A stretch of 64,000 nt of DNA from positions 1,302,001 through 1,366,000 of the forward strand of contig NZ_CP087714.1 of assembly GCF_039641995.1 (NCBI RefSeq), given 5' to 3'. This document shows positions 44,173 through 47,033 of this stretch, one piece after another. A program made the translations under genes and the position numbers. The notes beneath the pieces are model-generated. The model had not been told where the DNA came from and did not search any database. It saw nothing but the letters and a program-made list of their open reading frames with translations. Each line of letters starts with the position of its first letter. The first letter of the stretch is position 1. The DNA is from Geoglobus acetivorans. GTDB taxonomy: Archaea > Halobacteriota > Archaeoglobi > Archaeoglobales > Archaeoglobaceae.

Positions 44173-44420
44173 TCGGCTTAACGATACTGAGTAGATTTGT
44201 TTATAAGGGTTTTGGGTGCTTCGAATTTAACAAGTGGTTTTTCGGGCTGATATTGTAGGAGATCATGGTGGTGCACGCCTCGGATTGTACAGTCTGTGAT
44301 TGCCGGTTTAATAGTGCGTATGACAGTAATGGAAGGTTGAAATTCGGTTTGAGCAGTCATAATGGTTTTGATACACTTTTGCAGGATTCCTCCAAACTGT
44401 AATCACATTAATCAAAAGGA

Positions 44421-44428
44421 TTATATAG
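44421..44428 (+). promoter_or_regulatory. TATA box of the candidate ncRNA
   Basis: TTATATAG preceded by a BRE-like AAAAGGA. It is placed 25-28 bp before the first helix (44449) of the structured region, and no protein-coding start follows. Confidence 0.5.
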
Positions 44429-44448
44429 TATGAAAACCAAGATATACT

Positions 44449-44580
44449 GGGGACGAAGGTCAAACTTCCAAGACTAAAAGCCCAAGGGTTTAGAGCCTAA
44501 GGGTTTTTAAATCTCGAAGTTTGACTGAGAGTGGTAAGCACTCGTTGCTGGTGGTGAAAGCTACCAGCAATGTCCCCCCA
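44449..44580 (+). ncRNA. Candidate structured non-coding RNA, unknown class
   Basis: About 130 nt that fold into a closed multi-branch structure. Outer helix GGGGAC (44449-44454) with GTCCCC (44572-44577); inside it a perfect 10-bp helix GTCAAACTTC (44459-44468) with GAAGTTTGAC (44516-44525); a small hairpin GAGTG (44529-44533)/CACTC (44539-44543); and an 8-bp hairpin TTGCTGGT (44545-44552)/ACCAGCAA (44563-44570). A TATA box is correctly placed for a start at the outer helix. It is neither tRNA, 5S, SRP RNA nor RNase P by length and motifs. The rest of the 44173-44682 gap shows no gene. Confidence 0.5.
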
Positions 44581-44682
44581 TTACTTGTTACATGCTGTTT
44601 GCGTGTGTCTTCAGTTGATATGTCTGGCAGGTTGTTTTTCTTTATTGCTGTATGTTTTTTCTGAGAAATTGACGCTTTACGG

Positions 44683-45843
44683 TCAAACATCCTCTTCGTA
44701 AATTTTCTGCACGATCCTCCTATCGAGTACAAGCTCTTTATCTTTTACGACCAGCCTTTCTAATTTGTTGAGGGCAGTATGGATCGCAAATTCCACGCCC
44801 CAGGATTCACTCGTAACAAAGAAGTCCCCCTGATCGCTCCTGAGCCTCATTCTCACGTAGATGAGGGGCAAGTCTCTGTAATACTTCTTGAGCTTTTTTA
44901 CATATATGAATAGATGCGCCGTCCCGAGAGAATCTTCGAACTTCCTTAGGAATCTCTCCAGATCATTCAGGAGTCCCTCCACTTCAGAGCTTCTCAGGGT
45001 TATGCCTTTGGAGATAATCTGTACATTCTGTTCTTTTGAGGTCGTCATCTTTAGGTAATATTCTAGAAAGTCCTTCTTAACGACAATTCCCCCTGCCACG
45101 TCGTTTTCCATGACCACGAGGCTCGAAACATTCTTTTCGATCATCAGATTAATAGCTTTGATAACCCTGTCGTTTTTATTGACTGTTACAACTGGTCGAC
45201 TCATTATACTATCTACCGGTATGGAAAGCGCTTTCTCCCTTTCCTTCATGCTTAAATGTCCGAGTCCCTCGTCTTTTTTGAGAGAAACCACCCGGTCTAT
45301 TATATCTTTACCGGTGATGATCCCGGTAACCTTGTTTTCTCTATTAACCACAACAACTCTGCTTATGCCATGATTCCTCATGATTGCCAAGGCTTTTGAT
45401 GCACCATCGCTTGTTTTAACGGTGATGACTTCTGGACTCATAACACTCTGGATTTCAGCGTCTTCAAATACGTCCTTTATACTTTCCAGGAAATCATTAA
45501 TACGTATTATTCCTATTTCTCCGTTAAGTTTTACAGGAACAAATGGCGTGGAATCCTCTATAAATCTTCTTGCCAATTTTTCCGGAGTCAGTTCGCCAAG
45601 ACGAACTATTCCAGTTTTTGCGGTAAATCTTCCAATTTTTGTTTCGTCAGGGTTCGTCATCAGGCTCCCTCTGATAAGGTCTTTCTCTCTTATGGCTCCT
45701 ATGATCTCCCCATTCTTCTCGACAAGCATGGGTCTTTCGTGTTCTGATTCGGCCAGTAGTGAAATTGCCTTTGAAATCGTCTCATCTGCATTAATAATGC
45801 TGTAGTCGTCTGTAATAATCTCCAAAAGGCTTTCGTCATTCAT
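44683..45843 (-). CDS. Four-CBS protein with HPF/RaiA-like C-terminal domain
   Basis: 386 aa. Four CBS repeats fill about residues 1-275 (for example MSPEVITVKTSDGASKALAI and MSRPVVTVNKNDRVIKAINL). The last about 95 residues (GITLRSSEVEGLL, then TAHLFIYVKKLKK, ESWGVEFAIHTALNKLERLV) resemble the ribosome-hibernation (HPF/RaiA) fold. CBS proteins are known to act as hibernation factors in some archaea, so an energy-sensing ribosome-binding role is plausible, though inferred. ATG 45843 has GAGGAGGA with ideal spacing. Confidence 0.8.
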   Translation of the reverse strand: MNDESLLEIITDDYSIINADETISKAISLLAESEHERPMLVEKNGEIIGAIREKDLIRGSLMTNPDETKIGRFTAKTGIVRLGELTPEKLARRFIEDSTPFVPVKLNGEIGIIRINDFLESIKDVFEDAEIQSVMSPEVITVKTSDGASKALAIMRNHGISRVVVVNRENKVTGIITGKDIIDRVVSLKKDEGLGHLSMKEREKALSIPVDSIMSRPVVTVNKNDRVIKAINLMIEKNVSSLVVMENDVAGGIVVKKDFLEYYLKMTTSKEQNVQIISKGITLRSSEVEGLLNDLERFLRKFEDSLGTAHLFIYVKKLKKYYRDLPLIYVRMRLRSDQGDFFVTSESWGVEFAIHTALNKLERLVVKDKELVLDRRIVQKIYEEDV

Positions 45844-46067: not shown

Positions 46068-47033
46068 TGTAGTATCCCAAAATTATTTCACAACCCTAAA
46101 CCCAACTCTTGTGAGAAAACTAACTAACAAGAAAATCAAATGGATCATCAAGCAGCTCAACAAGGGAACTCCAGTAAAGGAAATAGCGGCTGTGATGAGA
46201 ATAACACCAAGAAGAATTTACCAGATCAAGAAGCAGTACAAAGAAACAGGAGAAATTCCTGAACTAAAACAACCGGGAAGGAAACCAAAGCTAATACCCA
46301 AAGAAACAGAGCAGATTATCCTGCAAGCCTACCAAAAGTACAAACTAAGTCCAGTTCCACTGGAAAAGCTGATAGAAAGAGATCACAGCATCCACATCCC
46401 CCACAACACCATATACAGAATCATGCTGAAACACAACCTCGTGGTTGAGAACATGAACAAGAAGAAGAGGAGGAAATGGGTTCGATTTGAAAGAACTCAT
46501 TCCATGAGTCTGTGGCAGGGAGACTGGAAAATGCTTGGAGAGGAGTGGATAATAGCCTTCATGGATGATGCTTCTCGCTTCATAACCTGCCACGGTGTTT
46601 TTGATTCTGCAACAACTGAGAACACAGTCAGAGTTCTGAGAAAGGGATTCGCTGAATATGGCATTCCAGATGAGATTCTTACCGATCACGGAACCCAATT
46701 TGTTGCTGCAAAAAGCAGAAAGAAGGCCAGGCACAGGTTTAAAGAATTCCTGAAGGAGAATGGAATAAGGCACATCGTTGCCAGAGTAAACCACCCTCAA
46801 ACCAACGGGAAGATAGAGAGGTTCTTTGGCCTGATGGAGCAGAAGCTAAGCTTGTTTAATTCTGTTGAGGAGTTTGTTTACTGGTACAATCACGTGAAGC
46901 CTCACATGAGCCTGAATTTTGATGAGCTTGAGACTCCTTATCAGGCGTTTCTGAGAAAGTTGCCTGCCGAAAGGGTGTTCGAGTTTAGCAGGAGGTGGTT
47001 GATTGAGGAGTGAAATTATTTCAGGATACTACA
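46068..47033 (+). mobile_element. IS481-type insertion sequence, 966 bp, apparently intact
   Basis: Bounded by inverted repeats TGTAGTATCC (46068-46077) and GGATACTACA (47024-47033), with imperfect pairing continuing inward (AAATTATTTCA at the left, TGAAATTATTTCA region at the right). It contains one transposase gene and is flanked by perfect 15-bp direct repeats. It sits 32 bp from the 3' end of tRNA-Phe. Confidence 0.9.
46111..47013 (+). CDS. IS481-family DDE transposase
   Basis: 300 aa. N-terminal helix-turn-helix (TPVKEIAAVMRITPRRIYQI) and an rve/RNase H-fold core with the DDE residues in WQGDWKML, LTDHGTQF and GKIERFFGLMEQ. GTG start just inside the left inverted repeat; no frameshift or stop, so it may be active. 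Cuts and rejoins DNA at the element ends. Confidence 0.92.
   Translation: MRKLTNKKIKWIIKQLNKGTPVKEIAAVMRITPRRIYQIKKQYKETGEIPELKQPGRKPKLIPKETEQIILQAYQKYKLSPVPLEKLIERDHSIHIPHNTIYRIMLKHNLVVENMNKKKRRKWVRFERTHSMSLWQGDWKMLGEEWIIAFMDDASRFITCHGVFDSATTENTVRVLRKGFAEYGIPDEILTDHGTQFVAAKSRKKARHRFKEFLKENGIRHIVARVNHPQTNGKIERFFGLMEQKLSLFNSVEEFVYWYNHVKPHMSLNFDELETPYQAFLRKLPAERVFEFSRRWLIEE

Follow-up and report, generated by a model that had tools for sequence, protein, structure and literature searches.

Structured RNAs transcribed from genes of their own are already known as a kind, and to our knowledge archaea have few classes of structured RNA that act in trans apart from the universal ones. A CGAAGGU motif at the base of the closing stem and a tRNA-like piece are features of Y RNAs, a group to which bacterial YrlA, with its tRNA-like module, belongs. 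The raiA-motif RNA, now called ModT (RF03072, from Bacillota and Actinomycetota), is a standalone, pseudoknotted structured RNA whose gene often lies by that of a hibernation factor, next to raiA in 66% of cases (PMC11706538), and HibA, which joins a CBS module to an HPF/RaiA domain, belongs to a family of ribosome hibernation factors (PMC13324472). Here, we describe a predicted RNA gene in a stretch of 64,000 nucleotides of Geoglobus acetivorans DNA (the window) that very probably represents a new structured RNA family, which is, as far as our sequence searches reached, confined to the Archaeoglobaceae and matches none described.

Rfam 15 returned nothing over positions 44180-44690, neither at the gathering threshold nor at E ≤ 5, in line with the preliminary description, which had recognised no known RNA there; on seven loci of relatives it returned none but a tRNA close by and some weak matches of the kind expected by chance, and we found no description of this RNA in the literature. 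Like ModT, the RNA is standalone, structured and, by prediction, pseudoknotted, but it is archaeal, has a different and simpler fold, gives no match to RF03072 even at E ≤ 5, and is adjacent to hibA in some of its copies only. It shares with tRNA a four-way junction in which the last arm passes directly into the closing stem; one subtype has a first and a last arm for which a kissing contact like that of D- and T-loops is predicted, and another has a T-arm-like hairpin that ends in ACCA. Unlike in tRNA, the arms have other lengths and the T-arm is a fifth hairpin placed after the closing stem, outside the cloverleaf and without an acceptor stem, and neither ARAGORN nor the Rfam tRNA model (RF00005) recognises the RNA. 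Archaeal H/ACA and C/D guide RNAs are likewise small and structured, but there is no Rfam match to them, and in the alignment we saw neither a guide pocket nor C and D boxes that form pairs. The CGAAGGU motif at the base of the closing stem and the tRNA-like piece recall Y RNAs, an idea that we rejected as a TROVE/Ro60 gene was found in 0 of 57 genomes of the order with a positive control.

Locus, promoter and predicted fold

The RNA gene, delimited by a covariance-model match at 44446-44579 on the plus strand, lies in a gap of 510 bp that is indeed free of genes, as first described, between the end of a tRNA-Met gene (44172) and the near end of a CBS-domain gene (44683). The TATA box TTATATAG can be read at 44421-44428, where it had been reported, and starts 28 nt ahead of P1, the closing stem; together with a BRE-like CAAAAGGA it forms a predicted promoter at 44413-44428 (plus strand) that would place the transcript start just upstream of P1, at about 44445-44449. 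The earlier proposal of an own promoter gains weight from the relatives, where the TATA box is kept at a fixed distance: of the 20 copies able to carry one there, 18 have a TTATATA-like box with at most one mismatch that starts 27-31 nt ahead of P1. In G028b and G028d, the latter of which bears a deletion, a TATA-like box lies 22 nt before P1; the promoter region of one further copy is lost to a contig end, and G030b has no recognisable promoter.

RNAfold predicts that positions 44449-44577 of the plus strand form a four-way junction from which the closing stem and three arms, P2-P4, extend, with a folding energy of -69.8 kcal/mol against -41.2 ± 4.0 kcal/mol in 200 dinucleotide shuffles (z = -7.17), none of which folds as well. 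P1 is a stem of 6 bp, in which GGGGAC (44449-44454) pairs with GTCCCC (44572-44577), exactly the outer helix that had first been described; it is supported by covariation, as relatives carry GGAGGC/GCCUCC, which amounts to two compensatory pairs. The junction GAA (44455-44457) leads into P2, whose strands 44458-44468 and 44516-44526 form a helix of 11 bp, and a GA junction (44527-44528) connects it to P3, a hairpin of 5 bp (44529-44533 with 44539-44543). P4 follows at 44544-44571 with 12 bp (44544-44555 with 44560-44571) and a GAAA tetraloop. Both RNAfold and covariation support P2, P3 and P4. The two main helices are where the preliminary description had them, perfect over 8 and 10 bp, but they are slightly longer, at 11 bp (with G-U at one end) and 12 bp. 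P2 continues into an upper extension (44471-44514) of three helices, 44471-44473/44512-44514, 44475-44483/44501-44509 and 44486-44490/44494-44498, predicted by RNAfold; this extension is lineage-specific and shorter in every relative but G001. The linkers are GAA between P1 and P2, kept in nearly all copies (AAA in one, missing in a deleted one), GA between P2 and P3, and zero nucleotides elsewhere, and what is unpaired consists of the junction and small hairpin loops. An 11-nt receptor for the GAAA loop of P4 was considered and dropped, as it is not kept in G001.

Relatives, covariation and subtypes

DNA searches of 60 genomes gave a match of 95% in G001, of the same genus, and one of 71% in G027, of another, which as a second query led to matches in G028, G063 and G019. 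With covariance models built from six sequences (R1) and from 18 copies (R2), DNA and covariance searches together collected 22 copies from 14 of the 57 genomes of the order and 6 of its 15 genera, all of them Archaeoglobaceae and with at most four copies per genome. The other 43 genomes yielded no copy in a search that scored a limited number of candidates per genome, so that absence from them is likely; with a presence in only 14 of 57 genomes, the RNA is not universally needed. Outside the family, neither R1, run against 394 genomes from the phylum, nor a pattern scan across 84,980 species gave a convincing match, those in G341 and G190 and four bacterial pattern matches being rejected with scores at chance level, and viral contigs and plasmid or phage records gave no match. 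The copies fold with z-scores from -2.5 to -12.4, the plus strand better than the minus strand in all 22. Some may be dead, as suggested by the lack of a recognisable promoter in G030b and by the deletion in P2 of G028d.

As the preliminary description had anticipated for a genuine RNA, the relatives keep the helices through compensatory change instead of breaking them. In a plain MAFFT alignment of six sequences, nine predicted pairs, including two of the six in P1, have changed on both sides and still pair. In the model alignment of 18 copies, 95.1% of the pair cells are paired (82.6% when shuffled), and two-sided changes are found in 30 of the 45 pairs and in 119 cells where 41 are expected, values that none of 500 shuffles reaches; when the partner is slid by 1-3 columns, pairing falls to 31-47%. 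Since this alignment is fitted to the structure, we counted a second time, on ten copies of the second subtype in a plain MAFFT alignment, where 97.1% of the cells are paired and 24 have changed on both sides against 8.9 expected, again matched by none of 500 shuffles. Two-sided changes affect P2, P3 and P4 in both sets, while P1 covaries in the six- and 18-copy alignments and is nearly invariant among the ten second-type copies. The compensatory changes exceed both the shuffle and the slide controls, and it is by this excess that we recognise a new family. The pair cells of the plus strand further contain 94 G-U against 12 A-C combinations, which points to the plus strand as the functional RNA, as a functional opposite strand should give the reverse ratio. 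Together with the fold, the conserved promoter spacing and the lack of an Rfam match, this leaves the original suggestion of a new structured RNA mostly upheld. The covariation behind the family is strong, and its fold is of a simplicity that suits probing.

The copies fall into three main subtypes, none of which fits G028b well. The window type (G000, G001, G027, G028a, G063 and G019a) has a long P2, capped in most members by a UACG tetraloop; another hairpin on P2 and a GAAA loop on P4 are found in G000 and G001. The second type, amplified in two genera (g3 and g9), comprises 11 copies including the deleted G028d and has a shorter P4, whose CCGU loop can pair with ACGG of the P2 loop; of the ten copies aligned, nine allow a contact of at least 4 bp and G024 one of 3 bp. 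As this contact is conserved and does not covary, the kissing loop between P2 and P4 is a prediction. Upstream of their TATA box, second-type copies share TTGACAA-N13-TTGTCA, which is not recognisable in G008 and lost to a contig end in G066a; this palindrome (TTGACAAC-N13-GTTGTCAG, at L054:9490-9530 and other second-type loci) is found in the searched genomes at RNA copies only, which led us to reject a regulon that shares it, and could be a dedicated activator site or an end of the unit. In the third type (G010, G021, G030a and G030b), P1 is directly followed by CCGGGTTCGAATCCCGGGGTACCA, a hairpin that resembles a T-arm, ends in ACCA and is kept to its last bases while the flanks diverge. 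This sequence is contained in no tRNA of G010, G030 or G021. The idea that it is an att site of an integrated element was discarded: the 23-mer occurs at RNA copies only and matches no tRNA in G010, G030, G021 or G028, and the tRNA-Glu nearby has a different acceptor end. These lineage-specific swaps of loop contacts (a predicted kissing loop, UNCG and GNRA caps, an added T-arm-like hairpin) form a natural experiment in RNA architecture.

Gene contexts and candidate functions

In several genera, the window-type locus has acs, UPF0182 or hibA as companions and, as these neighbours are kept across genera, it is old and vertically inherited. The other copies are dispersed over unrelated gene contexts. 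The two in G014 are 96.6% identical over 177 bp that cover exactly the promoter and the RNA, between unrelated flanks; G028c and G028d have 283 bp in common; and the similarity of G030b (L059:3256-3376, minus strand) to its sister copy runs from the inferred transcript start into the T-arm-like tail, as far as its ACC. The copies could have been spread by transposition, by retroposition or by gene conversion.

We consider it probable that the gene encodes a standalone, trans-acting scaffold RNA, a non-coding gene under its own promoter. Archaeal RNA polymerase would start from the TBP/TFB-type promoter at 44413-44428 and produce a transcript of about 130 nt with its 5' end at or just before P1. 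This would fold into a cloverleaf closed by P1, in which, as covariation indicates, P3, P4 and P1 follow each other without linkers and GAA and GA join P1 to P2 and P2 to P3. Acting in trans, it would most likely serve as a rigid scaffold or decoy for protein, possibly tRNA-like, and not by base-pairing with mRNAs; outside the junction and loops nearly everything is paired, which suggests a protein- or ribosome-binding scaffold and makes an antisense RNA unlikely. Extra copies of the unit of promoter and RNA have reached new loci, where, as covariation shows, they are kept under structural selection.

Chance hairpins in intergenic DNA, or a cruciform that acts at the DNA level, would agree with perfect inverted repeats that form on the other strand too, but can practically be dismissed in view of the covariation, the strand-specific G-U pairs and the promoter on the same strand. 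That the RNA works in cis, as the leader or riboswitch of a gene downstream of it, is hardly any more credible: acs begins 95 bp after the G027 copy and a P-type ATPase gene about 250 bp after G014a, but the gene that follows the RNA in the window is on the opposite strand, the downstream genes vary among copies, no alternative terminator or ribosome-site arm common to the copies was seen, and their unrelated gene contexts speak against a riboswitch of one gene. A mobile element of the MITE or SINE kind, in which the conserved unit moves and the fold serves its own spread, would account for the dispersed copies and the sharp 177-bp boundaries in G014, for an upstream box tied to second-type copies, for the proximity of some copies to tRNA genes, and for G030b, which starts without a promoter at the inferred transcript start like a retroposed copy. 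We deem it improbable, as by inspection we noticed no terminal inverted repeats or target duplications, no PF00589 integrase lies near any copy, there are no phage, plasmid or viral-contig matches, no genome holds more than four copies, the 283 bp common to G028c and G028d show that the unit is not fixed, and the window-type locus keeps acs, UPF0182 and hibA across genera by vertical inheritance. The flanks are too diverged for a comparison with empty sites, and short fragments suspected to be integrase remnants gave no significant family match.

A partner in ribosome hibernation, an archaeal analogue of ModT that works on or with the ribosome or HibA, is suggested by the gene that faces the RNA tail to tail (44683-45843, minus strand). 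Its product has four CBS domains, the only ones that Pfam shows, and a C-terminal HPF/RaiA-like domain, and it matches Pyrococcus abyssi HibA over its full length (PDB 9sr9_H, residues 7-383 to 7-386, E = 3.5e-39), by which we take the gene to be an ortholog of this archaeal ribosome hibernation factor. In G000 and G001, some 100 bp separate the RNA from hibA, and in G028 two copies, G028a and G028b, flank the gene, one 0.76 kb upstream of the start and the other 2.65 kb past the stop. DNA searches found no hibA ortholog in G002, G004, G005 and G006, of the same genus, which also lack the RNA, and a cloverleaf with a T-arm-like tail would suit a tRNA site. Still, the copies near hibA stem from one ancestral neighbourhood and are not independent, and most copies lack this neighbourhood, none of the second and third types having been seen near hibA, so that we hold the functional link to be doubtful; moreover, a distant HibA-like gene (48% identity) is present in G003, which has no RNA, and even for ModT the association with a neighbour is itself no proof of function. 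Somewhat less likely again is the more specific idea of an RNA in the shape of a tRNA, bound in dormancy to the ribosome or to HibA, as a convergent archaeal counterpart of ModT, in which the P2-P4 kissing loop would imitate the tRNA elbow and one lineage would have added the T-arm-like hairpin and ACCA end. As against these alternatives, we favour the trans-acting scaffold RNA, for whose function the hibA neighbourhood is a concrete first lead.

An end of an insertion sequence, which the preliminary description had named as a possible outcome, did not turn up: the nearest transposase, an intact member of the IS481 family (46111-47013, plus strand; NCBIfam NF033577), is 1.5 kb off, and no transposase is common to the copies. 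A frame-broken IS481 relative lies 155 bp from G035a (L062:1736-2633), the only copy among the relatives with such a neighbour, and the proximity in both places is probably a coincidence. Upstream of the RNA promoter, a further conserved region is found at about L055:2220-2560 and also ahead of G019a, G028a and G027; decayed reading frames upstream of window-type copies gave no clear result on translation, and in several genomes LAEYYKKLSxxxEWLKQN can be read, in broken frames, from the minus strand of the conserved region. The RNA copies in L062, L061 and L068 lie downstream of, and point at, the same tRNA-Arg(GCG) gene at distances of 76 to 1993 bp, a site that is possibly an integration hot spot.
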